Assembly (NCBI RefSeq): GCF_963457605.1
Contig: NZ_OY735139.1
Location: 124,001 to 188,000, forward strand
Length of the DNA stretch: 64,000 nucleotides
Direction: 5' to 3'
Origin: an uncultured Gellertiella sp.
Lineage (GTDB): Bacteria; Pseudomonadota; Alphaproteobacteria; Rhizobiales; Rhizobiaceae
The position numbers and the translations under genes are program-made. Under the pieces are notes generated by a model. The model made no database searches. It saw nothing but the letters and a program-made list of their open reading frames with translations, and was not told the DNA's origin. Below, piece by piece: positions 1,322 to 18,457 of this stretch (position 1 is the stretch's first letter; each line of letters opens with the position of its first letter).

Positions 1322-2815
1322 TCAGTCGACGAGTTTCATCGTCACCGATTTCAGCTTGGTATAGGTCTTCATGCCTTCAAAACCCTTGGCGCGGCCAAAG
1401 CCGGACTTGCCATTGCCGCCAAAGGGCACTTCGACGCCAGCCGCGAAATACTCGTTGACATAGATCTGCCCGGCATCGACATCACGGGCGAAACGCACGG
1501 CCTTCGAGAGATCGGCGGTATGGATGCAGGCCGCCAGCGCATAGTCGGTGCCATTGGCAAGCGCCACGGCATGGTCGAAGTCGTCGGCAACCTGCAGGGC
1601 GAGAACCGGGCCGAACACCTCTTCCTGCACGATCGGATCGGCGGGATCGCTGGCTTCGACCACGGTCGGGGCGAAATACCAGCCGTCGCGGGCATCTTCC
1701 GGCGCAACCCGGCTTCCGCCTGAGATGATCCGGTCGCCGCGGGCTTCGGCACGCTGCACATGGCCTTCGATGCGGGCCAGCTGTTCGGCGGAATTGACGG
1801 CGCCGACATCGAGATTGTCGAGCCCGTGGCCGACCTTGAGATGCGCCATCGCCGCCTGCAGGCGTTCGACCACCTGGTCACGGATCGACGCCTCGACGAT
1901 GATGCGCGAGCCTGCCGAGCAGATCTGCCCGGCATTTTCGAAGATCGCCCCCATCGCGTCGGGAATGGCGTGGTCGAGATTGCAGTCGGCCATCAGCACA
2001 TGCGGCGACTTGCCGCCAAGCTCCAGCGTCACGCGGGTGATGTTGCGCGCCGCTTCCGCCATCACCCGGCTGCCCGTCGGGACGGAGCCTGTGAACGTGA
2101 TGTGGTCGATGTCGGGATGGGCGGTCAGCGGCCCGCCGACCGATGCGCCGGTGCCGGTGACGACATTGAACAGGCCTGCCGGAAGCCCGGCCCGGACACA
2201 GATTTCAGCCAGCAGCAGCGCGGTGAACGGCGTCTGTTCGGCAGGTTTCAGCACCACCGCGCAGCCGCAGGCAAGCGCCGGTGCAACACCGCGCACCGCC
2301 GAGGTCAGCGGATAGTTCCAGGGGATGATCTGGCCGACCACGCCCACCGGTTCGTTGATCGTATAGGCGAGATAATCCGTTCCGACCGGGATCTGCGATC
2401 CTTCCAGCTTGTCGGCTGCACCGGCATAATATTCGAAGGTGCGCGCGGCACTCTTCACGTCGCCTTCGGCTTCGCTCAGCCGCTTGCCCGCATCGAACAT
2501 TTCGACGAGTGCCAGCCGCTTGCCCTCGGCGCGGATCATGTTGGAGATCGCAAGCAGGATGCGGCCCCGTTCGGGAGGAGGCGTCAGCTGCCAGGCGCGC
2601 TGCGCCTTGCGGGCCGATTGCACCGCACGGTCGACATCATCGGCAGTGCCGTTGGCAAATGAGGCAAAGGCCTTGCCCAGACCGGGATCGAAACTGTCCA
2701 TCTGGTTGCCGGCGGACGGCGTCACGAAGGTGCCGTCGATGAAATGGCCGCGCGGCAGGCGTGCGATCCCGGCGGCATCCCGGGCTTCGGCCAGACGGGT
2801 CTTGAGGTCGCTCAT
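1322..2815 (-). CDS. NAD(P)-dependent aldehyde dehydrogenase
   Basis: A 497-residue enzyme of the aldehyde dehydrogenase superfamily, full length for the family. The general-base glutamate is E265 in LELGGKSP and the catalytic cysteine is C299 in NAGQICSAG; the cofactor-binding IIPWNYP segment and the FTGS loop are also present. The start overlaps the stop of the enolase-superfamily gene by four bases (ATGA), so the two are co-translated. This pairing suggests oxidation of an aldehyde made from a sugar-acid or hydroxy-acid dehydration product, for example a semialdehyde step. The exact substrate cannot be read from the sequence. Confidence 0.88.
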   Translation of the reverse strand: MSDLKTRLAEARDAAGIARLPRGHFIDGTFVTPSAGNQMDSFDPGLGKAFASFANGTADDVDRAVQSARKAQRAWQLTPPPERGRILLAISNMIRAEGKRLALVEMFDAGKRLSEAEGDVKSAARTFEYYAGAADKLEGSQIPVGTDYLAYTINEPVGVVGQIIPWNYPLTSAVRGVAPALACGCAVVLKPAEQTPFTALLLAEICVRAGLPAGLFNVVTGTGASVGGPLTAHPDIDHITFTGSVPTGSRVMAEAARNITRVTLELGGKSPHVLMADCNLDHAIPDAMGAIFENAGQICSAGSRIIVEASIRDQVVERLQAAMAHLKVGHGLDNLDVGAVNSAEQLARIEGHVQRAEARGDRIISGGSRVAPEDARDGWYFAPTVVEASDPADPIVQEEVFGPVLALQVADDFDHAVALANGTDYALAACIHTADLSKAVRFARDVDAGQIYVNEYFAAGVEVPFGGNGKSGFGRAKGFEGMKTYTKLKSVTMKLVD

Positions 2816-3918
2816 GATCTTGTCTCACTCATTCTGTAGGCCGCCTTGTCGAGCCAGGCGGGATTGATCTCCACGCCCCAGCCGGGCGCGTCGGTAACGG
2901 TGACCTTGCCATCCTCGACCCGGTAGGGATCAAAGGTGAACAGATCCTGTTGCCAGGGGTAGTAGTCCGGTCCCTCGATGGAAAATTCGAGGTATTTCCC
3001 GGCATTCGGAATGGCCAGCAGCAGATGCATGGTGCATAGCGTCACCAGCGACAGGTTGGCCGCATGCGGCGTGACCGGCAGACCCGCCGCCGCTGCCATC
3101 CGCGCCACTTCAAGTGTCCGCACCATGCCGCCCATATACATCACGTCGGGCTGGACGATATCGACGGCGCCCATGCCGATCATGGCCTTCCAGACCGTAT
3201 ATTCGCAATCCTGCTCGCCGCCCGTGACATCGATGGCCAGCGCCTCGGCGACTTGCCTGGTCTGCTCCAGCTCCCAATAGGGGCAGGGCTCCTCGAAATG
3301 GCCTATGCCATGGTCCTGCAACAGGCGTCCGACTTCGATGGCGCGTTGCGGAGAATAGCAGGAATTGGCATCGACCAGCTTGTCAATTCCGTCGCCAAGT
3401 GCGCTGGAAACGGTCTTGATGATCTCTTCCGTGCGGCCCGGCCATTCGTCGCAGTCGCGCCCGCATTCCGAGCCGACCCGCCATTTGAAGGCATCGAAAC
3501 CATGACGGTCGCGCAGTGCCACCAGCCGTTTGGCCTCGTCTGCGGGCGTGATGTCGCGACGCATCGAGCTGGCATAGGCGCGCAGTTTTCCCGGCTTGCC
3601 GCCAAGCAGGCTGACCACCGGCAGGCCCTCGATCCTGCCCCGGAGATCCCACAATGCGGTATCGAGCCCGGTCATGGCGCGGCGGAGATAGGAGCCCGGA
3701 TATTTGTGCTCGCGCTCGCCGATCAGCTGCAACGTATCGGTAAAGTCCAGCGCATCGGTGCCCAGTGCATGCGGGGCGATCTGGCGGTGGAAGATCTCGC
3801 AGGTAATGTCGGCATTATAGGTGGAGACCTGTCCCCAGCCCTGATGGCCGCTGTCGGTCGTTACCCGGACAAAGCCGACGAATTCGTTGCAAAAGGTTTC
3901 GAGCCTGCTGATTTTCAT
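2812..3918 (-). CDS. Mandelate racemase/muconate lactonizing enzyme family protein
   Basis: A 368-residue member of the enolase superfamily. The metal ligands are visible as D183 (LVDAN), E209 (HFEEP) and E235 (TGGEQ). The second-strand catalytic pair is K145-W-R147, and the opposing base is H285 (TPHAAN). The KxR/H arrangement fits acid-sugar dehydratases or racemases of the mandelate racemase subgroup. I chose the start at MKISRLE because a longer in-frame extension upstream shows no family resemblance. It is the first gene of an operon with the aldehyde dehydrogenase. A role in sugar-acid catabolism is inference; substrate unknown. Confidence 0.82.
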   Translation of the reverse strand: MKISRLETFCNEFVGFVRVTTDSGHQGWGQVSTYNADITCEIFHRQIAPHALGTDALDFTDTLQLIGEREHKYPGSYLRRAMTGLDTALWDLRGRIEGLPVVSLLGGKPGKLRAYASSMRRDITPADEAKRLVALRDRHGFDAFKWRVGSECGRDCDEWPGRTEEIIKTVSSALGDGIDKLVDANSCYSPQRAIEVGRLLQDHGIGHFEEPCPYWELEQTRQVAEALAIDVTGGEQDCEYTVWKAMIGMGAVDIVQPDVMYMGGMVRTLEVARMAAAAGLPVTPHAANLSLVTLCTMHLLLAIPNAGKYLEFSIEGPDYYPWQQDLFTFDPYRVEDGKVTVTDAPGWGVEINPAWLDKAAYRMSETRS

Positions 3919-4070
3919 GGGGGCAACCGGGTTCTGGCCTCGATTGGGCCTCTGACTTGAGGGCCGCACCCTATGCCAGAAGCCGCCAGCCTGCCTAGCG
4001 GAGCGGGCCGGTTCCGGGATCAAAATTAACTGCATGTAGGCTCAGGATTTTTTGAACATGCGAACGTTGT

Positions 4071-4847
4071 TCAGCGCTGCTGTCCGGCAGCGCCAAACCG
4101 GACGCGGCTTTTGCCGGGGTCGATGAAGGCCTGTTGAACGGTGACATCAAGTGCCCCGGTTTCCGCAGCCACCGCGAGGCAATGACCGGGAGCAAGCAGC
4201 TGGCTTAAGAAGCTCCAGCGGGCCGGATCGTCATCCGCCGGTGCGTCAAAGTGGACGGTCCCGTTGCTGGAAATCAGCGAAAAGCCTTGCAGATCAAGGC
4301 GGAAGCCGAGGCCTCTGGCCTTGATATAGGCTTCCTTCAATGTCCAGATGCGAAAGAAGGCCTCCGTCGCCGCCTGCGCCGGGAAGGCGGCAAGATGGGC
4401 CTGCTCGCCGGGTGAAAACAGGTGCCGCGCAAGATCCCGGTCTGCGGCATCGGCTTTTATCCGCTCGACATCGATGCCGCACCGTGCGCCGGTGGCAATA
4501 CATGCGGCGACCATCCCTGATGTTTGCGTGCGGGAGAAATACACCGGGGCGGGGATATCCCGATGCATCGCCACCGGTGCGCCAAGCGCATCATGGGAAA
4601 TGCCGACAGTCCGGGGATCGGCATCAAGTGTTTCCGCGAGCAAGGTTCTCGCAAGCATCGCACCCGCGATTTTCTGCTGTTGCAGGTGGGAAAGGGGCAG
4701 GCGCGCAATGCGTGCCTTTTCCGCAGGCAGCAGCTCCGCCTTCAGCCGCTCGAAGGTGTCGGCATCAAGACCTTCAAGCGCCAGGAATGCCGCTCTCAGA
4801 CGAACCGGGCCCGTCGTGGGCCCGGCATGCTGCAAAGGGGAAGTCAT
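4071..4847 (-). CDS. Sfp-type 4'-phosphopantetheinyl transferase
   Basis: A 258-residue protein with the two hallmark motifs of the Sfp/AcpT family: GIDVE (magnesium ligands D126 and E128) and FFRIWTLKEAYIKARG (W168, K171, E172). It would move the phosphopantetheine arm of coenzyme A onto the carrier domain serine of a synthetase. It starts three bases after the stop of the upstream synthetase gene, so the two are almost certainly one operon and this enzyme is the likely activator of that synthetase. It may also serve other carrier proteins. Confidence 0.92.
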   Translation of the reverse strand: MTSPLQHAGPTTGPVRLRAAFLALEGLDADTFERLKAELLPAEKARIARLPLSHLQQQKIAGAMLARTLLAETLDADPRTVGISHDALGAPVAMHRDIPAPVYFSRTQTSGMVAACIATGARCGIDVERIKADAADRDLARHLFSPGEQAHLAAFPAQAATEAFFRIWTLKEAYIKARGLGFRLDLQGFSLISSNGTVHFDAPADDDPARWSFLSQLLAPGHCLAVAAETGALDVTVQQAFIDPGKSRVRFGAAGQQR

Positions 4848-4850
4848 CGC

Positions 4851-7800
4851 TCAGCGGCGCGGCAGGGCAACCGGGATCAGTTGCTTGCCGGCCAGCGCCT
4901 GACGACGGGTGGCGGGAGCGCCATGCCATTCGGAATTGGCCGGAATGCGCTCGCCCTTCATCACGATGGTGAGCGGCCCGAGCCGGGCGAAGTCGCCGAC
5001 ATGGCTGTCATAGAGCACGGTGGAGCCGCATTCGACGCTGACGCCCTTGCCGACCGAGACCCGGCCGATCTTCATCACCCGGTCTTCGTAAAGATGGGTC
5101 TGCAGCGCCGCGAAGGCATTGACCGAGACGTAATCGCCGACATTGATGCAGTCGAATTCGGTGATATCGGTCATGTCGAGATAGACACCCTTGCCGAATT
5201 TCGCCCCGAACAGGCGCAGAACCCAGGGCAGGAAGGGCGTGCCGCGCAGGAAGTCGAGCAGCATGCGGGCGGCCATGCCGGAATACATCACGGCAATCGC
5301 TTCGGTGCGCAGCGCCCACCACGACCACATCGGCTTTTCACGCGGCACATAGGTGCCCATCATCAGCCATTTCAGGCCAATGACGATCAGCGTCATGGTC
5401 ACCGACATCCCGAGCCCCAGCGCCACGAAAGTGCCCGCAGCGGCCAGGTAATCGCCATTGGTGATGGGGTCGGCCATGATTTCGATGGCCACGGTCCCGA
5501 AGGTGATCATCGACACGGTCGGCACCGAGAGGTTGAAGAAGGCTTCGAAACCGGCGCGGCCGAGCTGCCGCCAGATCGACGGGGTGAAGGTGCGGTTGGC
5601 ACCGCCATCGAAGCGCTGGCGCACCGGCAGCTTGATCGACGGGCTGCCGAACCAGGTGTCGTTTTCGCTCATCAGTTCATTGGCCGGCGGCTTGGACTTG
5701 ATGCCGATCAGCGTGCCTGTCGGAATATCTGCACCTGCGCCCACCACGGAATTGTTGCCGACAAATACCCGGTCGCCGGTGCGCACCTTCTTCAGCGTCA
5801 TCCAGCCGCGGCGCACATCTTCCTCGCCGAGCATCGCTTCGTCGGCGATGAAGCAGTTCGCCCCGACCTCGACCAGATCATAGCGACCCGACAGGCTGGT
5901 GGAGATTTCCGCACCCTTGCCGATCTTTGCGCCCATCAGGCGATACCAGCCGCGCATGTAGACCGTCGCATAGAGCGAGGAGAGGGTTTCGAGCGCCACT
6001 TCGCTGGCAAGCGACACTATCCATTTGCGGACATAGACGCCGCTGTGGACCGAATAGGTGCCTTCTTCGAGGCGGGGCAGGAAGATCCAGCGGATGGCGA
6101 CGATCGAGGCAACCGTCATGGCAACCAGGCTCAGGGCAGCGGGAAGCGCGATCAGCGGCAGGAACCAGTGATAGTCGATGGTGGTGGACTGTTCGAGCAG
6201 GCCATCGGCCCAGTCGAAGATGTAGAAGGCAGGCACCAGCGGCATCAGGCCGATGGAGGGAACGGTGAGGGCGGCGAGCAGATAGAACAGGATGTTGCGG
6301 GCCCGGACGGCACGGCTTGCGGTCGCCGGTGCGGGAAGTTCCGAGACATCGACAGTCCCGACCCGGCGGGCCGGCGATCCGTCCCATTTTTCAAAGGCAC
6401 CGATGACCGAATCGTTGCCGATGGCGGTGAGGTCGGCCATCTCGGCGCTTTCGCCGATGGTGACATTGCCGCCGATGACGCAGGACGAGCCGATATAGGC
6501 ATCGTCGCCGATGGTGATCGGACCAATCACCAATTCATTGCCGATCACCTGTGCATTGGCAAAGCCGCAATGGCCACCGATGGAGACACCATTGCCGATG
6601 TCGAGCAGGTCGACGGCGCCGGCTTCCACTTCATAAAGCAGCGTATCCTTGCCGATCCGGGCTCCGAGCAGGCGCAGCACGACGATCAGCAGCGGCGTGC
6701 CCTGCACCCATTTCATGTGGATGAGCGAGGTCAGGCGCTGCACCAGCCACCAGCGGTAATAATAGCTGCCCCAGAGCGGATAGCGACCGGGTCTGGTGCG
6801 GCCAAGGATCAGCCATTTCGCGCCGATGACGATGGCGGTGGTCAGGAGATTGATGGCAAGGAAGACACCCGCCATGCTGAGCGTCTCGACATAGAAGGGA
6901 GTCTCGTCGGAATTCAGCAGCATGTAGGAGACAAAGACGCCCAGCCACTGGGCGGTCATCAGGCTGATGATGACAGGCAGGGCGGCAGCCTGGGCGGCCC
7001 CGCAGAGGAAACGGCGCAAAAGCGGCACCGGCGTGAAGGTGAGATCAACCCTGGCCGCATTCGGATCCAGCTCGGCATCAAGCCTTGCCGACATCGCGCG
7101 GATGGTGCGGTCACGATAGACGTCCTGCAAGCCGAGGCCGGCCTGATCGGCCTTCTCGCGCACGATGGAGATGAAACGGGCCGCCAGCAGCGAATGGCCG
7201 CCGAGATCGGTGAAGAAATCCGCGTCCAGCGGGATCGCCGAACCGGGGAAGATTTTTTGCGCGGCGGCGTGGAGAACAGCTTCGGTCGGGGTGCGCTCCT
7301 CATCGACCGTGGCGGAGATTTCCGGCGCGGGCAGGTCGCGCGCCATCAGCGCCTTGCGGTCGGTCTTGCCGGAGACCATGACCGGCAGGTGATCGAGCGG
7401 GATGATGCGGGCCGGGACCATATAGGCCGGAACCGTCAGCGCCAGCGCGGCGCGCAGCGCCTTGACGTCAGGCGTGACATGGGCGGCAGGCACGATGAAG
7501 GCGACGAGCTGGTCGACGCCATTGTCCGACCGCAGCACCACGGCGGCCTGCAACACCTCGTCCATGCCACTGAGCCGGGCTTCGATTTCGCCGAGCTCCA
7601 CGCGGAAACCGCGAATCTTGACCTGGTCATCGAGACGTCCATGGAAACGGATATTGCCGTCAGCGTCGACGCTGACCGCATCGCCGGTCCGGTAGAGGAC
7701 CGGGTCCATGCTGCTGAGCGGGAAGGGATTGGCAATGAATTTGGCAGCGGTGAGGTCTGGACGCTTCAGGTAGCCGCGGGCAATGCCGGGGCCGCCGATC

Positions 7801-8897
7801 AGCAACTCGCCTTCGGACCCTTCCGCCACCAGTTCCAGGGCCTCATTGACGACGTAGCAGCTGTAATTCGGGATCGGACGGCCGATGGTGACATCGGCAC
7901 CGGGCAGGATTTCCGCGACCGTCGCCACCACCGTTGCTTCCGTCGGGCCATAGCTGTTGAACAGCTGGCGACCGGGCCGGGCAAAGCGCGCGGCAATCGA
8001 GGGCGGGCAGGCTTCACCGCCAAGGATGATGATGCGCAGGCTCGGCACATCCTCGGAAAACAGCGAGAGCAGGGTCGGCACCGTGTCGATGACGGTTACG
8101 CCATACTGGCGCAACACGCCGGGCAGCGCCTCGATGTCGGACATGATGGCGGGATCGGCGACAAACAGCGACGCACCCGCGACATAGGGCAGCCAGATCT
8201 CTTCCATCGACAGGTCGAAGGCGGCAGACGCGCCCTGGAACACGATATCCTGTTCATTGACACCATAGACCTCACGGGCGGCGCGCAGGAAATGGCAGAT
8301 GTTGCGATGGGTGACCTCGATGCCCTTCGGCGTGCCGGTCGAGCCCGATGTATAGATGTAATAGGCCGCATGATCGGCGGTCAGGCCGAGGCTGCGCGGA
8401 TTGGCCGGAGCCTGGCCGCGCAGCGCGATTGCCTTGTCGACGAATATGCTGAGGCCGAGGCCATCGAGGGACGGGGCGAGGTGCGCTTCGGTGAGGATAC
8501 CGCGTGCATCCGCATCGCTGAGGCAGGCATTGATCCGCTCGGCCGGCGTATCGGCATCGAAGGGCAGCCATGCAGCACCGCTGCGGGTAATCGCAATCTG
8601 CGCCGTCAGCAGCGCCACGCCGCGCCGGAACCACAGACCGACGACATCGCCGGGGCCAATACCCTTCTGCTGGAGGCCTGCCGCAAGCGCATTGGCGGCT
8701 TCATCAATGTCTCGATAGGAAAAGCGCTTCGCCGGCGTGATATAGGCGGTGCGATCCGGCCCCCTTTCGACGGCCTCATTGAAAATGTCCGGCAGCACGT
8801 CGTCCCGCAACAGATCCGGCCGGCTGTCGCCCAAAAGCAGGGATGCGGCGGGATGGCGGGCTGGAGAAAAGCGCGGGCTGACATTCATAAGGTTCAT
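4851..8897 (-). CDS. Pls/PosA-family membrane-bound non-ribosomal peptide synthetase
   Basis: A 1348-residue single-module synthetase. An adenylation domain covers about residues 30-540, with the ATP loop YTSGSTGTPKG near 182 and NSYGPTEA near 315. A carrier domain follows with phosphopantetheine attachment at S569 (DLGGHS). There is no usual condensation or thioesterase domain. Instead the C-terminal half has three pairs of membrane segments (about 632-697, 869-938 and 1118-1180), each followed by a hexapeptide left-handed beta-helix domain. This is the architecture of epsilon-poly-L-lysine synthetase (Pls) and the PosA-type poly-ornithine enzymes, in which the three tandem soluble domains join identical amino acids into an isopeptide chain. 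The predicted specificity residues include acidic positions, which suits a basic substrate. The phosphopantetheinyl transferase gene lies 3 bp downstream. The start has only a weak Shine-Dalgarno. Confidence 0.9.
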   Translation of the reverse strand: MNLMNVSPRFSPARHPAASLLLGDSRPDLLRDDVLPDIFNEAVERGPDRTAYITPAKRFSYRDIDEAANALAAGLQQKGIGPGDVVGLWFRRGVALLTAQIAITRSGAAWLPFDADTPAERINACLSDADARGILTEAHLAPSLDGLGLSIFVDKAIALRGQAPANPRSLGLTADHAAYYIYTSGSTGTPKGIEVTHRNICHFLRAAREVYGVNEQDIVFQGASAAFDLSMEEIWLPYVAGASLFVADPAIMSDIEALPGVLRQYGVTVIDTVPTLLSLFSEDVPSLRIIILGGEACPPSIAARFARPGRQLFNSYGPTEATVVATVAEILPGADVTIGRPIPNYSCYVVNEALELVAEGSEGELLIGGPGIARGYLKRPDLTAAKFIANPFPLSSMDPVLYRTGDAVSVDADGNIRFHGRLDDQVKIRGFRVELGEIEARLSGMDEVLQAAVVLRSDNGVDQLVAFIVPAAHVTPDVKALRAALALTVPAYMVPARIIPLDHLPVMVSGKTDRKALMARDLPAPEISATVDEERTPTEAVLHAAAQKIFPGSAIPLDADFFTDLGGHSLLAARFISIVREKADQAGLGLQDVYRDRTIRAMSARLDAELDPNAARVDLTFTPVPLLRRFLCGAAQAAALPVIISLMTAQWLGVFVSYMLLNSDETPFYVETLSMAGVFLAINLLTTAIVIGAKWLILGRTRPGRYPLWGSYYYRWWLVQRLTSLIHMKWVQGTPLLIVVLRLLGARIGKDTLLYEVEAGAVDLLDIGNGVSIGGHCGFANAQVIGNELVIGPITIGDDAYIGSSCVIGGNVTIGESAEMADLTAIGNDSVIGAFEKWDGSPARRVGTVDVSELPAPATASRAVRARNILFYLLAALTVPSIGLMPLVPAFYIFDWADGLLEQSTTIDYHWFLPLIALPAALSLVAMTVASIVAIRWIFLPRLEEGTYSVHSGVYVRKWIVSLASEVALETLSSLYATVYMRGWYRLMGAKIGKGAEISTSLSGRYDLVEVGANCFIADEAMLGEEDVRRGWMTLKKVRTGDRVFVGNNSVVGAGADIPTGTLIGIKSKPPANELMSENDTWFGSPSIKLPVRQRFDGGANRTFTPSIWRQLGRAGFEAFFNLSVPTVSMITFGTVAIEIMADPITNGDYLAAAGTFVALGLGMSVTMTLIVIGLKWLMMGTYVPREKPMWSWWALRTEAIAVMYSGMAARMLLDFLRGTPFLPWVLRLFGAKFGKGVYLDMTDITEFDCINVGDYVSVNAFAALQTHLYEDRVMKIGRVSVGKGVSVECGSTVLYDSHVGDFARLGPLTIVMKGERIPANSEWHGAPATRRQALAGKQLIPVALPRR

Positions 8898-9113
8898 GGC
8901 GGTAATCCGTTCAATATGATCCGGCTGAAACGGCTCCGCAACGCAATGTCGCGACTCCTTCTTTCACCGATGCCACACCGATAGCCGATCACGCATTACC
9001 TTCCCCTGACGCGCCCTGACGGTGTTTTGTAATCTTTCTTCCACTAGGATAGTGTTTCGTGGCGAGATCCGCGCCGGACCCGCCGCAGACAACCCGAGGC
9101 ATTGTTACCATTG

Positions 9114-11550: not shown

Positions 11551-12803
11551 CAGGGGAATCGGGTGAACGCATTATCCGGTGATGATGCGGACGAGGAAGT
11601 CGTCGTCCCAGGCTGCGGAGTGTCGGGCGAGATTGACGGACAGCTTGCCCTTTCCGCGCCGGATGAGGTTCAGGGCCATGTGCTTGATGGTTGTGAAGTT
11701 GGCGGGGGCGTGATCGGTTCGCACGCGGCATTCGTCGTCGCGGAACGTCATATCCATGACCCAATGCAGGCTGTTTTCGACTGTCCAATGGCTCCGGACG
11801 ACCGGACCGATGGCGCAAGCCGGGAGATTGAGCGAAGTGATGTAGAGGCGCGTCTCTCTCGTTTGGACCCCGGCGATTTCCCGGATGGTGTCGATCATGA
11901 CGATGCTTTTCAAGGCAGGCCAGTCATGCCGCTCCCGAAGCCATGCAGCGTCGTGGATCACGGTCGTTGTTCTGGTCTCGATGCGGCCATGATCCGCATC
12001 GACGGTTTCGTCGCGACTGACGACGGTGTCCTTGAAATCGCACGCCTTTTGTTCAGCGACGAAGAGTTTGACGTCCTCTTGCAAGCTGCTCTGGTTACCC
12101 TTGAGCGCCAGGACGTAATCGGCTTTCTTGTCGACGATCTTCTGCGCGACCGCGCGCTGGCAGCCGATCGCGTCGATGGTCACGATGGCACCTTCGATTG
12201 TCAGCATGTCCAGCAGTTTGGGGATGGCGACGATTTCGTTGGACTTCTCGGCCACCTTGACCTGACCCAGCACCAGGCGCTGGCGTGCGGCGAAGGCAGA
12301 GACCATATGAATGGCTGCGATCCCCCTGGACCGGTTATGCGAGCGGCGCACCGTCTTGCCGTCAATGGCGATCACGCCCTCCGGAATGCCGGCGACGGTT
12401 GCGACCCAGGTTGTGAAACAACGCTGGAATTGCTCGGCATCGAGCGAGGCCAGAATATCGCCGAGATGGTCGTGGGCAGGCGTTCCATTCTCGAATGCCG
12501 CCAACCGGCGCAGCAAACCCAGCCTCTTCGCGCCGAACAGGGCAATCGCGGTGATGCTCTCGGCACCCGCTACCACAGCCGTGAGGCATAGCAGCAGAAT
12601 CTCCTGAAGCGGGTAAACCACCTTGCCCCGCTGACGCGGGTCTTCCAGTTCCGCAAAATGCTTCAGAAAAACAACCGTTTCCTCAAACGCCGGGCACATC
12701 GCTGCCGTATCGTCCATACCATCCCCCAAAAAGCAAATCAGAGGAAAGGTACAGATTCAGCAAATCAGGCGTTTGTCACCTCCTCATTCACCCGATTGCC
12801 CTG
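11551..12803 (-). mobile_element. ISAs1-family insertion sequence, 1253 bp
   Basis: The element is bounded by 17-bp terminal inverted repeats (CAGGGGAATCGGGTGAA on the left; the right end reads CAGGGCAATCGGGTGAA on the opposite strand; one mismatch) and flanked by a perfect 10-bp direct repeat. It carries one intact transposase gene. The perfect duplication and intact gene suggest a fairly recent insertion, between feuQ and the displaced tRNA-Ser fragment. Confidence 0.92.
11572..12717 (-). CDS. ISAs1-family DDE transposase
   Basis: A 381-residue transposase that catalyses cut-and-paste movement of the surrounding element. The acidic triad is visible in VIAIDGKTVRRS, IVTIDAIGCQ and the VENSLHWVMDMTF(R)DDE block typical of the family. 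The N-terminal part carries the LEDPRQRGKV motif common to ISAs1 transposases. The ATG at 12715-12717 follows a GGGGGA Shine-Dalgarno; a TTG four codons upstream is possible. The frame is uninterrupted. Confidence 0.93.
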   Translation of the reverse strand: MDDTAAMCPAFEETVVFLKHFAELEDPRQRGKVVYPLQEILLLCLTAVVAGAESITAIALFGAKRLGLLRRLAAFENGTPAHDHLGDILASLDAEQFQRCFTTWVATVAGIPEGVIAIDGKTVRRSHNRSRGIAAIHMVSAFAARQRLVLGQVKVAEKSNEIVAIPKLLDMLTIEGAIVTIDAIGCQRAVAQKIVDKKADYVLALKGNQSSLQEDVKLFVAEQKACDFKDTVVSRDETVDADHGRIETRTTTVIHDAAWLRERHDWPALKSIVMIDTIREIAGVQTRETRLYITSLNLPACAIGPVVRSHWTVENSLHWVMDMTFRDDECRVRTDHAPANFTTIKHMALNLIRRGKGKLSVNLARHSAAWDDDFLVRIITG

Positions 12804-12813
12804 GGCTGACGCC
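12804..12813. repeat. Right target-site duplication of the ISAs1-family element
   Basis: Second copy of GGCTGACGCC, directly abutting the right terminal inverted repeat. Confidence 0.88.
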
Positions 12814-12844
12814 GCCATCCGGTATTTACGCATGGATAATTCAG

Positions 12845-12912
12845 TTATGGCGGAAGAGGTGGGATTCGAACCCACGGTACGGTCTCCCGCACGCCGGTTT
12901 TTAAGACCGGTT
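12845..12912 (-). repeat. Left attachment repeat: displaced 3' part of tRNA-Ser
   Basis: Bases 12848-12912 match the 3' 65 bases of the tRNA-Ser at 18368-18457, including CCA, T-arm, variable arm and anticodon stem-loop. The single mismatch (12902 against 18422) lies in the anticodon, TAA instead of TGA. The 5' half is missing, so it is not a functional tRNA. Confidence 0.9.
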
Positions 12913-12958
12913 TAAAAATATTGATTAACTTGCACTTTTTCTCTATTTCTGTCACATG

Positions 12959-12975
12959 TTGCAGCATTGTTGCAG
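12959..12975. repeat. Candidate integrase arm site, left end
   Basis: TTGCAGCATTGTTGCAG, containing two TTGCAG units, lies 47 bp inside the left attachment repeat and just upstream of the integrase start. The same 17 bases occur at 18269-18285 near the other end of the island. Confidence 0.5.
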
Positions 12976-12993
12976 AAATCAGGGAGAAGCTGC

Positions 12994-14088
12994 ATGGCAA
13001 GCCTCGTCAAACGCGGATCGAAATGGACGGCGACAGCCCGCCTTCCGGACGCGTTCAACGGGCCGTGCAAGTCCCGATCGATCTCGGCCACCTTCAAATC
13101 CAAGCGGGACGCGACGCTGTGGAAAGACGCGACGGAATCGGCAATGCGCCTGGGCACATGGAAAGACCCGCGCCTTGAGCCGAAACCGGGATCTTCGAAG
13201 GGATACCTAGAGCGCCCCTTCAAGGAGGTTCTGGAAGACTACCGCGATCTCGTCACGCCGGAGAAGATGGGTGCGGCTCAGGAGGTCGCGATGCTTAACA
13301 TGCTTGCCCGAATGGACTTCGCTTTGAAGACCGTCCGGGAGCTGTCGGTGCAGGACTTTGCGGATCTCCGCGACGCCCGCTTGAAGGAAGGGCTTAAGAA
13401 CTCCACCGTCCGGAACAACCTCAACACCCTCTCGGCGATATTCGAATGGCTGATCCACGAGAAGTCCGTGCAGACGTCGAATCCTATCGCTGGCCTGCGG
13501 AAGCGGAAGCGCGGCATTCCCCAGCCCGGCGCCGGGCGCGAGCGTCGTCTTCGTCCCGGTGAAGACGACCGGATATGGAAGGCCCTTACCGGAGAGACTT
13601 GGCAGAATCGCCAATGGCAGGCCCTCTACCCTGTCTTGCTCGACACCGCGATGCGCGCTGGGGAAGTCCGCAAGATTCTGGCAGGTTGGGTTCGGCAGGA
13701 GTACGGGTTCATCATCATCCCGAAGAGCAAGAACGGTGAAGCGAGGCATGTCGCCCTTTCGGATCGTGCCTACGAAGCCCTACTTAGTCAGGCAGAAGGG
13801 GAGCCTGACGATGCGACCGTGTTCAAGATGACGAAGAACTCCGCCGAACACGAGTGGCAGAAAATACGCATCGTTGCAGGTTGCCCCGACCTTCGGATTC
13901 ACGATCTCCGACATGAAGCTCTGAGCAACATGGCCGCGAACGGGGCTGACCTCCGGACACTGATGCGGCAGTCCGGACACAAGAGTGTCTCCGTTCTCAT
14001 GAGGTACTTGAATCCCACGAAGGAGGAGCAGAGGGCTCGGCTGTTCGGAAAGAAGGCGCCCGCACCAGAACAACCCGAGGCGCCGTGA
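12994..14088 (+). CDS. Tyrosine recombinase/phage-type integrase
   Basis: A 364-residue integrase: N-terminal arm-binding region (about 1-65), core-binding helical domain (about 70-170) and catalytic domain (about 185-350). The catalytic residues R221, H303, R306, H329 and nucleophile Y338 are all present (TAMRAGEV, HDLRH, GHKSVSVLMRYL). The ATG start at 12994 follows AGGGAGAA; an upstream TTG lacks a ribosome site. It lies directly inside the left attachment repeat, as expected for an element that uses tRNA-Ser, and should cut and join DNA within the repeated region. Confidence 0.95.
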   Translation: MASLVKRGSKWTATARLPDAFNGPCKSRSISATFKSKRDATLWKDATESAMRLGTWKDPRLEPKPGSSKGYLERPFKEVLEDYRDLVTPEKMGAAQEVAMLNMLARMDFALKTVRELSVQDFADLRDARLKEGLKNSTVRNNLNTLSAIFEWLIHEKSVQTSNPIAGLRKRKRGIPQPGAGRERRLRPGEDDRIWKALTGETWQNRQWQALYPVLLDTAMRAGEVRKILAGWVRQEYGFIIIPKSKNGEARHVALSDRAYEALLSQAEGEPDDATVFKMTKNSAEHEWQKIRIVAGCPDLRIHDLRHEALSNMAANGADLRTLMRQSGHKSVSVLMRYLNPTKEEQRARLFGKKAPAPEQPEAP

Positions 14089-14105
14089 ATCCCTTCAGGC
14101 GCCTG

Positions 14106-14522
14106 CTAGGGCCTGTCCGCGTCAAGAACGAAAGATTTTAGTTTTTCCCGAAGCTTTTCGAGGTCTGAGATTTCGCACTGCCACAGAACTAGAACCGACC
14201 AACCAAATTCTTCCAGGGCGTCAATATTCCGTGCGTCTCTGGCGACATTTGCATCAAATTTGATTTGCCAGAAGTCCGCTCTGCTCTTCGGTGTACTGGC
14301 CAGCCGGCACCCAGCGTGGCGATGCCAAAAACAGCCGTGAACGAAGATCGCCTTCTTCTGTCGGGGAAACACGACGTCAGGAGACCCAGGTAGGTCTCTC
14401 CGATGAAGCCTGTACCTGAACCCCATCGCGAACAGCGCGCGCCGGACTGCCATCTCGGGCTTTGTGTCTTTGCCCTTGACGCGCGCCATGAGTGACGATC
14501 GTTTCGGGTCGATTTCACTCAT
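14106..14522 (-). CDS. vsr: Very short patch repair endonuclease (Vsr)
   Basis: A 138-residue protein of the Vsr family, which nicks DNA at T:G mismatches left by deamination of 5-methylcytosine. The conserved PGSPDVVF (D49), FVHGCFWH (H62, W66, H67), E23 and zinc-type Cys/His residues are visible, so it looks active. Vsr genes usually accompany a cytosine methylase, but none is present: 39 bp upstream of the start is the end of an IS21-family element. It converges on the integrase gene with a 17-bp gap. The remaining upstream bases form an open frame whose stop overlaps the vsr start, which could be the tail of a lost partner gene. Confidence 0.92.
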   Translation of the reverse strand: MSEIDPKRSSLMARVKGKDTKPEMAVRRALFAMGFRYRLHRRDLPGSPDVVFPRQKKAIFVHGCFWHRHAGCRLASTPKSRADFWQIKFDANVARDARNIDALEEFGWSVLVLWQCEISDLEKLREKLKSFVLDADRP

Positions 14523-14633
14523 GCCGGAACCGGTCGCCTATTCGGTTCAAGGAATTCATGTTGTTGGTTTTCACGCGGAACTGAGCCGGTTTTTCCACCG
14601 AGAAATGAGCCACCTCTGAGTATGGTTTTCTGA

Positions 14634-15428
14634 TCAGGGTTTGGTCAAGGGATTGGCTTTTTCTCCTCTCTTGTGTGCTGCGGCAGCCGAGCTGGCTTTA
14701 AAGCGGAAGCTGTCGTTCCCGGTTTCCAGGATATGGCAACGATGGGTCAAACGATCGAGCAGGGCGGTCGTCATCTTGGCGTCGCCGAAGACGGTTGCCC
14801 ATTCGCTGAAGCTGAGGTTGGTGGTGATCACCACGCTGGTCCGCTCGTAGAGCTTGCTCAACAGGTGGAAGAGCAGCGCTCCGCCGGACGCGCTGAAGGG
14901 AAGATATCCCAGTTCGTCCAGGATCAGCAGATCGAGGCGAACCAGCGTCTCGGCGATCTGGCCTGCCTTGCCTTTGGCCTTCTCCTGTTCGAGAGCATTG
15001 ACCAGTTCGATGGTCGAGAAGAAGCGGACCTTTCGGCGATGATGCTCGATGGCCTGGATTCCGAGAGCGGTCGCGACATGCGTTTTGCCAGTGCCAGGGC
15101 CACCGATAAGGACAACGTTCTGCGCCCCATCCATGAACTCGCATCGGTACAGTTGGCGCACGGTGGCCTCGTTGATCTCGCTGGCGGTGAAGTCGAAGCC
15201 GGAGATGTCTTTGTACGCAGGAAAGCGGGCAGCCTTCATGTGGTAGGCAATAGAGCGTACCTCGCGCTCGGCCAATTCGGCCTTCAGCAACTGGGACAGG
15301 ATGGGCACGGCCGCATCAAAAGCCGGAGCACCTTGCTCGATCAGATCCGTGACGGCTTGGGCCATGCCATACATCTTCAGGCTCCGCAGCATGATGACGA
15401 CGGCGGCGCTGGCGGGATCATGACGCAT
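14634..15428 (-). CDS. istB: IS21-family helper ATPase IstB
   Basis: A 264-residue AAA+ ATPase that assists the IstA transposase in target selection. Walker A is GGPGTGKTH, Walker B is LLILDELGY, and the C-terminal arginine-rich region [13 protein letters not shown] is typical. The start ATG at 15426-15428 follows an ideal AGGAGG ribosome site; the gene overlaps the end of istA by 11 bases. The frame is intact. Confidence 0.95.
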
Positions 15429-16950
15429 GGCGACCTCCTGCGATCCGGGCGCGTAGGCCATCATAGCGTTCGACATTGGCTTTGGGTTCACGCAGCAAAG
15501 CCAGCGCCTGTGGCGTATCGATGTCGGGACCGTCGGTCGTCTTGCCGTCGATCAGCCGGTGCAGCAGGTTCAGCACATGCGTTTTCGTTGCCACGCCGGC
15601 ATCCAAGGCCAGTTCCACAGCCCTGAGTACGACCTGTTCGTCATGCTGAAGGACGAGGGCAAGGATGTCGGCCATCTCACGATCACCGCCGGGGCGGCGA
15701 AGCATCTGGTCTTGCAACTGCCTGAAGGCAGTCGGCAATTCCACAAACGGTGCGCCATTGCGTAAAGCGCCGGGCTTGCGCTGGATGACCGCAAGGTAAT
15801 GCCGCCAGTCGTAAATCGTTCGTGGCGGTTTGTCGTGGCTGCGCTCAATGATCCGCACATGTTCGCATAGGATATTGCCCTCGGCCGCAACGACCAGTCG
15901 GTCGGGATAGACCCGCAGGCTTACGGGCCGGTTCGCAAACGACGCAGGCACGCTGTAACGGTTCCGCTCGAAGGTGATCAGGCAGGTGGGCGAGACGCGC
16001 TTGCTTTGCTCGACGAAGCCGTCAAAAGCGGGAGGCAGTGCCATCAACGCGGCCTGTTCTGCGACCCAGACGTCGGCGATCGAACCGGGTAATGTGTTGT
16101 GTGCAGTCTCGCGCCACAGATCCTGGCAATGCTGTTCCAGCCAGGCGTTCAGCGCTGCCAGATCAGGGAAGCTTGGCATCTGTTGCCACAGGCGTGGTCG
16201 GGCATCCTGGACGTTCTTCTCGACCTGCCCCTTCTCCCAGCCCGCAGCGGGATTGCAGAACTCAGGCGCGAAGACGTAATGGTTCGTCATCGCGAGGAAA
16301 CGGATATTGACCTGTCGCTCCTTGCCGCGGCCGACGCGATCGACCGCCGTCTTCATGTTGTCATAGATTCCCCGCGATGGCACACCGCCGAACACGCGGA
16401 ATCCGTGCCAATGGGCATCGAAGAGCATCTCGTGCGTTTGCAGCAGGTATGCCCTGACCAGAAAAGCCCGACTGTGCGATAGCTTGATATGTGCGACCTG
16501 AAGCTTCGTGCGCTCGCCGCCGATCACGGCATAATCTTCACTCCAATCGAATTGGAATGCTTCGCCTGGGCGGAATGACAGCGGAACGAATATGCCACGG
16601 CCCGTCGTCTGCTGCTCACGTTGCCGATCAACTCGCCACTCACGGGCGAAGGCGGCGACCCGACCATAGGAGCCGGTAAAGCCGAGAGCCACCAGGTCCG
16701 CATGAACCTGCTTCAGCGTTCGGCGCTGCTTGCGCGACTTCCCGGCCTCGGTCTTCAGCCAGCCAGCCAGTTTGTCGGCAAAAGGATCAAGCTTGCTCCG
16801 TCGTTCCGGTACCGTGAACGTCGGCTCGATCGTGCCGGCGCTCAAATACTTCGCGATCGTGTTACGCGACAGCCCAGTGCGCCGGCTGATCTCGCGGATC
16901 GACTGCTTCTCGCGAAGCGCCATCCGACGAATAATGTTTAAAAGTCCCAT
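15418..16950 (-). CDS. istA: IS21-family transposase IstA
   Basis: A 510-residue DDE transposase with an N-terminal helix-turn-helix ([18 protein letters not shown]), an integrase-core domain beginning near FQFDWSEDY, and a C-terminal beta domain ([15 protein letters not shown]). The start [10 protein letters not shown] matches related IstA proteins and follows ACGGAG. Together with IstB it can move the surrounding element. No frameshift or stop was found. Confidence 0.94.
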
Positions 16951-17118
16951 GTGGATCACTCCGTTGCCCCCGTCGCTCACCGCGTTGGGGGGAAGGTTCA
17001 CATGGCTCAGTTCTCAATGGAAATTATGCGCCTAACCGGCTCAGTTCTGCGTGGAAATCAACACTCCTTGCCCCATGGTCACTGAATGGTGAACGGACTT
17101 TCAAAAGATGATCCATCA

Positions 17119-18364: not shown

Positions 18365-18432
18365 TTATGGCGGAAGAGGTGGGATTCGAACCCACGGTAC
18401 GGTCTCCCGCACGCCGGTTTTCAAGACCGGTT
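18365..18432 (-). repeat. Right attachment repeat, inside the intact tRNA-Ser
   Basis: 68 bp, 67 identical to 12845-12912. Identity ends at 18432, a few bases past the anticodon stem, so the crossover probably lay in or near the anticodon loop. Confidence 0.9.
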
Positions 18433-18457
18433 CCTTAAACCACTCGGACACTCTTCC
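18368..18457 (-). tRNA. tRNA-Ser(TGA)
   Basis: A 90-base class II tRNA with encoded CCA. The acceptor stem GGAAGAG pairs with CTCTTCC; the anticodon stem-loop CCGGT-CTTGAAA-ACCGG gives TGA; a long variable arm (GCGTGCGGGAGACCGTACC) and the T-loop GGTTCGAATCC are present. It reads UCA-type serine codons. Its 3' two thirds were supplied by the integrated island; the displaced original lies at 12848-12912. It is followed by rlpA on the opposite strand. Confidence 0.96.

Follow-up and report, generated by a model that had tools for sequence, protein, structure and literature searches.

A DLED-type Pls/PosA-family synthetase gene and its divergent PepSY/two-component module in Gellertiella

According to Patel & Gulick 2023 (PMC10522769), the Pls/PosA family is associated with six known cationic homopolymers, with delta-poly-L-ornithine added to them, and interest in these polymers lies in their antimicrobial activity. 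The family's synthetases conserve two substrate-pocket residues, an Asp (position 1) that serves the alpha amine and a Glu (position 3) that serves the side-chain amine; chain length depends on the residue at position 2, which is Phe in the case of diaminopropionate or diaminobutyrate (Dap/Dab), Met in that of ornithine, and Ala in that of lysine (PMC10522769). The code 'D L E D I G T V T/V/I K', from Archaea, Rhizobia, and Methylobacterium, is listed there as a unique signature of unknown substrate. A further described system, the PepSY protein/response regulator (RR)/histidine kinase (HK) set DbfQRS of Vibrio cholerae, is switched on by damage to the outer membrane and by polymyxin B (PMC12714742). 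Here, we describe pls, a synthetase gene of the Pls/PosA family, in a 64,000-nucleotide stretch of DNA (hereafter, the window) from an uncultured Gellertiella sp. (contig NZ_OY735139.1, positions 124,001 to 188,000; G000:C2:124001-188000 in our numbering of this 4.17 Mb, two-contig genome), together with the adjacent 4'-phosphopantetheinyl transferase (PPTase) gene and a divergent PepSY/RR/HK module (Table 1). We think it probable that the protein is a membrane-bound, single-module synthetase that joins a short diamino acid through isopeptide bonds into a homopolymer, and that it is armed by the PPTase and, within the genus, controlled by the PepSY/RR/HK module.

Family membership, the central claim of an earlier reading of this DNA from its letters alone (the original prediction), is borne out by the TIGR02353 'Pls/PosA family' model, which matches residues 635-1329 at 581 bits against a cut-off of 423 in an NCBIfam search. 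A Pfam search likewise recovers the claimed layout of one adenylation (A) and one carrier domain: AMP-binding at residues 39-377 (3e-79), AMP-binding_C at 437-511, PP-binding at 551-606, and Hexapep, with no condensation or thioesterase family found in the 1348-residue protein at E<=1. The A domain of PosA (8g95) aligns with that of the synthetase in a single stretch at 404 bits; LgrA and 8xjz_C score higher, but through two stretches each. S569 of the carrier domain is kept by 97% or more of those aligned rows that have a letter at its column. The three tandem repeats of a helix pair and a beta-helix that had been claimed for the C-terminal part are supported both by HHalign, which finds the repeats homologous to one another (E 1.5e-24, 1.7e-22, and 3.7e-13 within a 22-sequence alignment), and by an AlphaFold2 model of residues 600-1348 (pTM 0.81; mean pLDDT 76.6, lowest at both ends and 55-67 through most of the third beta-helix), in which two long helices followed by beta-helix strands occur three times. 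Foldseek gives hexapeptide acyltransferases, e.g., galactoside O-acetyltransferase, as the top Protein Data Bank matches of the modelled part (best E 2.5e-6; TM-score 0.54 by target, 0.15 by query). The outcome that had been named as counting against the prediction, a domain search placing the C-terminal half in an unrelated acyltransferase family without the three repeats, did not occur. All family features tested—the TIGR02353 score above cut-off, an A and a carrier domain without condensation or thioesterase domains, three repeats, and the pocket residues D228 and E232—were found.

Table 1. Features of the locus (positions in the window)
Feature	Position	Strand	Basis
pls, Pls/PosA-family synthetase, DLED-type, 1348 aa	4851..8897	-	TIGR02353 581 bits; full-length homologues
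Adenylation domain: PF00501 residues 39-377, PF13193 437-511	7365..8783	-	Pfam; PosA A domain 8g95 match
Substrate-pocket region, residues 228-324	7926..8216	-	79-row alignment; columns checked against PosA numbering through the 8g95 alignment
Carrier (PP-binding) domain, residues 551-606; probable phosphopantetheine site Ser569 in LGGHSL	7080..7247	-	Pfam; row conservation
Membrane/beta-helix repeat 1, residues 619-855	6333..7043	-	HHalign; AlphaFold2
Membrane/beta-helix repeat 2, residues 856-1095	5613..6332	-	HHalign; AlphaFold2
Membrane/beta-helix repeat 3, residues 1099-1334	4896..5603	-	HHalign; AlphaFold2
QTHLYEDRVMK motif, residues 1266-1276, candidate catalytic site of polymerization	5070..5102	-	Row conservation
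sfp-like 4'-phosphopantetheinyl transferase, 258 aa, motifs GIDVE and WTLKEAYIK	4071..4847	-	PF01648 8.3e-20
Conserved box TTACAAAACACCGTCAGGGCGCGTCAGGGG, pls/two-component intergenic; candidate response-regulator site	9003..9032	-	18/30 columns invariant, 5 genomes
Small PepSY-domain protein, 124 aa	9102..9476	+	PF03413 24.7 bits, cut-off 24
OmpR-type response regulator, 228 aa	9480..10166	+	Best NCBIfam PmrA 207 bits, below cut-off 330
Sensor histidine kinase, 456 aa	10163..11533	+	Best NCBIfam PhoQ 134 bits, below cut-off 497

What sets the enzyme apart is its pocket. Mapping the ten specificity residues on a 79-row alignment, with PosA residue numbers from PMC10522769 as the column check, gave D228, L229, E232, D271, I291, G293, S315, V323, and V324, plus K511, i.e., DLEDIGSVVK. 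The pattern DLED[ILV]G[ST]VVK was read in 53 rows—every row at least 47% identical to the window protein—and in none of the other 26 (rows L023 and L025 come from the same genomes as L044 and L045). Those 26 include the PosA-like DMEHNGTVSK (four rows), the canonical Rhizobiaceae type DFEALGTVTK (15 rows, plus DFEAMGTVTK in one), DFECLSAVTK (L022, L024), and DSECYGGVTK (L102), the last being the code of a Bdellovibrionales enzyme with modest arginine activity (PMC10522769). Rows added later read DAESVGTVVK (L138, L139, L142, L143) and DGESVSVVNK (L137, L140, L141); the latter is one residue off the code for epsilon-poly-beta-lysine (PMC10522769). In a FastTree phylogeny of 70 rows (support figures are local values), 41 rows, all with DLED codes, form a clade with support of 100, and the four PosA-like rows are its sister (node support 99).

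DLED enzymes are unevenly distributed. All five genomes of the genus carry the synthetase, its C-terminal half being 74-79% identical in the four others, and a contig scan returned 23 loci, four of them from uncultured Rhizobium metagenome-assembled genomes (MAGs) and Gellertiella hungarica (72-76% identity) and 19 (53-63%) from Methylocapsa, Methylocella, a Methylovirgula MAG, other Beijerinckiaceae/Methylobacteriaceae MAGs, and Rhizobiales/Hyphomicrobiales MAGs. Within family f42, sampled around G312 and, judged by similarity, probably Beijerinckiaceae in the GTDB sense, the C-terminal half was matched in 101/149 genomes, 99 of them at 476 bits or more and two at only ~160 bits, the range of distant types. 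By comparison, 15/199 genomes of the window's own family passed the TIGR02353 cut-off: three belong to this genus, and the enzymes of the remaining 12 are of other types, ~30-33% identical to the window protein. A DLED enzyme was also present in G582, another Rhizobiaceae genome, which came from the order sample. By these counts, DLED enzymes seem uncommon within Rhizobiaceae and frequent outside it. Around pls in loci L046-L063, what we take to be fabI lies upstream in 16/18 and aroC downstream in 8/18, which suggests an old, fixed place of the gene in that family. Given the near-uniform pocket and the 99/149 f42 genomes, such a cationic polymer may be routine physiology there and not an occasional weapon. 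One very divergent relative, L027 (G021), has the code DGSFIATTDK and a TIGR02353 score of 165 bits, below cut-off.

The second distinctive feature lies upstream of pls, where the genes for the PepSY protein, RR, and HK run divergently from it. An RR and HK divergent from pls were found by BLAST in 9/59 loci: the window, L042, L044, and L045 of the genus (a further genus locus, L043, ends before the RR); L121, from another Rhizobiaceae genus (G582); and L123, L131, L132, and L133, from one f50 genus. Every one of these pls genes carries the DLED code. The linked kinase is 66-69% identical in the four other genomes of the genus and 52-54% in the five other linked genomes; identity above 50% occurred, in the genomes searched, only beside DLED pls genes, in two lineages besides the genus. 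Elsewhere, it did not exceed 38% in 36 relatives outside the genus (six of which gave no match) or 43% in 28 DLED genomes that lack the linkage. We conclude that the module goes with pls, though most pls genes do without it. An identification of the module as the core FeuPQ system was considered and dropped, the kinase being nowhere above 38% in the 36 relatives. The literature searched, largely without subscription papers, yielded no link between such a module and a Pls enzyme.

Between the two units, an alignment of the five genus loci contains 42 invariant columns of 261, and 18 of these fall within one 30-column stretch, which reads TTACAAAACACCGTCAGGGCGCGTCAGGGG in the window; this density was reached in 0/10000 column shuffles. 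Its core, TTACAN6CGTCAG, occurs once per genome, at the box, in four of the five genus genomes and twice in the fifth (once at the box), while the reversed control pattern occurs zero to three times per genome; since the pattern was derived from the same five loci, only its rarity elsewhere is informative. With the strict core, no wider regulon is visible across these five genomes. Partly by eye, a spacing of 11 bp was also noticed between GCTTGCA repeats in L123 and L132 (f50) and between TTACA and TGACA in L121 (G582); this is at most suggestive of a box common to all linked lineages, and we do not claim one.

The original prediction also stated that the synthetase has its own PPTase. The pairing holds, the PPTase frame starting 3 bp downstream of pls on the same strand, with a PF01648 score of 71 bits against a cut-off of 25 marking it as Sfp-type, and a PPTase accompanying pls in all five genus loci (in G. 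hungarica L045, the copy at 12072-12755 is split by an in-frame stop), but it is not special. This genome has two further PF01648 genes, and a profile built from seven PPTases found here (which match by construction) places a PPTase no more than 2 kb from pls in 18/59 loci, spanning several lineages and orientations: downstream on the same strand in the five genus loci, L121, L122, L127 (526 bp away), L128, L129, and L131 (start unclear); directly upstream in L125 and L145; convergent in L124, L138, and L139; and divergent at ~1.5-1.7 kb in L137 and L140, both of code DGESVSVVNK. All 15 of these 18 PPTases that were scanned (L043, L044, and L045 were left out) pass the PF01648 cut-off. The profile found none near pls in nine f42-genome loci or in the 18 loci L046-L063, some contigs being short. 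Given this spread, the pairing is a recurrent but optional, ordinary habit of the Pls/PosA family. One of the further PF01648 genes, at C2:574536, lies ~18 kb from several adenylate-forming enzymes (~592-604 kb), possibly another nonribosomal-peptide-type cluster.

As to the product, D228 and E232 are both retained, and a poly-basic-amino-acid product is likely. With Leu at position 2, the chain-length rule points to a monomer of the size of ornithine or slightly shorter. We searched 47 genomes with various pls types for Dab-forming aminotransferases (TIGR00709, dat; TIGR02407, EctB): neither passed its cut-off in any of the 31 DLED genomes, compared with three (TIGR00709) and one (TIGR02407) of the 16 non-DLED genomes, and the window's own genome had no match to either model (E-value limit 1e-80). 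Both models matched beside pls in G022; in that genome (L126, 6477-12049), a Pls of code DFECLSAVTK has a Dab/EctB-type aminotransferase directly downstream and is likely a Rhizobiaceae poly-Dab synthetase. The window enzyme differs from each described type: it has L229, D271, I291, S315, and V324 where PosA proper has M218, H260, N280, T304, and S313; L229 in place of the Ala of epsilon-poly-L-lysine synthetase; and neither the Phe nor the Dab aminotransferase of poly-Dab synthetases. Dab itself was lowered as a candidate, though not dropped, by the aminotransferase negatives; G486 has two TIGR00709 matches at 277 bits, under the cut-off of 402. Because of the Leu and the absence of a Dab-forming aminotransferase over cut-off in DLED genomes, ornithine, or something of that size, is favored, at roughly even chances. 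The description of the product as unexplored in rhizobia stands, except that nearly the same code had already been flagged as unique in organisms including Rhizobia (PMC10522769).

Several observations weigh against the reading we prefer, some concerning the monomer and others the module. The His and Ser that PosA carries at pocket positions 4 and 9 are replaced here by Asp and Val, and the PosA S313A change lowers kcat/KM ~180-fold (Table 1 of PMC10522769), so that ornithine is not a given; a Dab-forming aminotransferase outside TIGR00709 and TIGR02407 might supply Dab; and the literature searched, with the limit given above, shows no product for any DLED-clade enzyme. Alternatively, the same polymerase might use a different building block: L-lysine, Dab in its D or L form, or some modified or uncommon diamino acid that E232 and D271 together recognize. 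We rate this only slightly short of an even chance. The pocket also resembles DAESVGTVVK, whose Ala at position 2 is the epsilon-Pls residue, and DLEDIGTV[TVI]K has no known substrate (PMC10522769); yet, by the rule of that paper, Leu is nearer in size to the Met of ornithine enzymes than to the Ala of lysine enzymes, and all 31 DLED genomes lack dat or EctB over cut-off.

On the regulatory side, the box was derived and searched in the same five genomes, the G582 and f50 promoters being only loosely alike; the unlinked kinases of G486 (43%) and G465 (40%) narrow the gap to the linked ones to about ten points; the PepSY label is marginal in the window and weak for the small proteins of L042, L121, L123, and L132, which score 14-23 bits against a cut-off of 24; and most DLED loci examined have neither a linked PPTase nor a linked module, so that both are optional for pls. 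That scarcity, together with the placement of the genus (five rows) and the other linked rows (three) in different subclades of an unresolved fork—which would allow one ancestral arrangement followed by losses—leaves room for the module being a chance neighbor kept by gene order. We consider this unlikely, because kinases of 52-54% identity adjoin pls in a second Rhizobiaceae genus and a third lineage, unlinked ones stay within the limits given above, and a conserved box separates the two units. Less probable still is that the protein is not a polymerase and that its beta-helix domain moves single aminoacyl groups onto an envelope lipid or glycan, as in DltA-like systems: the C-terminal fold does match hexapeptide O- and N-acyltransferases, D-alanine ligase models match the A domain below cut-off, and presence in 99/149 genomes of one family suggests housekeeping, but the TIGR02353 domain is complete with its family-invariant residues, and the sister clade is PosA-like, PosA yielding free 7-12-mers in vitro (PMC10522769).

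On sequence evidence, the most probable function of the locus is to make a cationic homopolymer under regulation, and we infer its activity, monomer, polymer, regulator binding, and role at the envelope or against competitors as follows. The A domain would adenylate the monomer, likeliest L-ornithine or a compound of similar size; the PPTase would arm the carrier domain, and the aminoacyl thioester would then be offered to the C-terminal domain of six helices and three beta-helices, which would repeatedly join side-chain amines to carboxylates and release a polycation of perhaps 7-35 units. In that domain, 41 positions are kept at 97% or more over 89 rows (the divergent L027 excluded; certain rows are copies from one genome), and the window synthetase retains the family-invariant residues; Q1266 (89/89), H1268, E1271, and K1276 (each 88/88) form a dense polar group in the third beta-helix, which we propose as a candidate catalytic site by analogy with hexapeptide acyltransferases. 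Kito, in 2013, reportedly made a mutational study of the three Pls domains. The RR of what resembles an envelope-stress module (DbfQRS/PhoPQ-PmrAB-like) would probably bind the repeated box and control both units; a sensor of cationic stress beside a polycation synthetase would make sense as self-protection or as a trigger. A bolder and doubtful extension is that DLED enzymes make an undescribed cationic homopolymer and that, in Gellertiella and the parallel lineages, the PepSY/PhoQ-like kinase senses the polymer or its envelope damage and in turn acts back on pls, which would make a polycation circuit that senses itself. Any antimicrobial or adhesive use of the product is speculation. Beyond the original prediction, the new elements are the DLED pocket and clade and the divergent PepSY/two-component module, the family and the neighboring PPTase being already ordinary; the linked two-component system offers a handle on when and why the polymer is made.

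Elsewhere in the window, 35 bp past the PPTase gene and on the same strand as pls, are genes for an enolase-superfamily (MR/MLE) dehydratase-like protein and an aldehyde dehydrogenase (1322-4035); they were considered as pathway genes and set aside, as they were not seen behind pls-sfp in the four other genus loci (L043 being a short contig). Directly behind the kinase gene, a mobile-element cluster at 11572-17001 comprises a DDE transposase, a phage-type integrase, a Vsr endonuclease, an IS21-type IstB, and a Mu-type transposase, and a single tRNA-Ser lies at 18368-18457.

Set against described systems, the synthetase has in common with PosA, the Acinetobacter baumannii delta-poly-L-ornithine synthetase (PMC10522769), its domain layout, the pocket residues D, E, G, and V, and, at position 7, a residue bearing a hydroxyl group, but its code, DLEDIGSVVK, departs from the DMEHNGTVSK of PosA-like rows. 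Streptomyces albulus epsilon-Pls likewise combines an A domain, a carrier, six transmembrane helices, and three tandem soluble domains (PMC10522769); its A domain is a weaker match (7wew, 259 bits), and it has Ala where the window enzyme has Leu at position 2. We found no recognizable report, in the literature searched, of an epsilon-Pls linked to a two-component system. The canonical Rhizobiaceae Pls-like proteins (L012-L021) belong to the same family, and L127 and L128, the two loci read, each have a PPTase downstream; they form a distant clade ~30-32% identical to the window protein, with the code DFEALGTVTK (DFEAMGTVTK in L016), in which the second residue, Phe, marks Dap/Dab (PMC10522769). 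For the module, the comparison is one of layout: the accessible part of the DbfQRS account (PMC12714742) mentions no polycation synthetase, and, as in V. cholerae, a small PepSY protein (PF03413, 24.7 against 24) is here encoded beside RR and HK genes in one unit.

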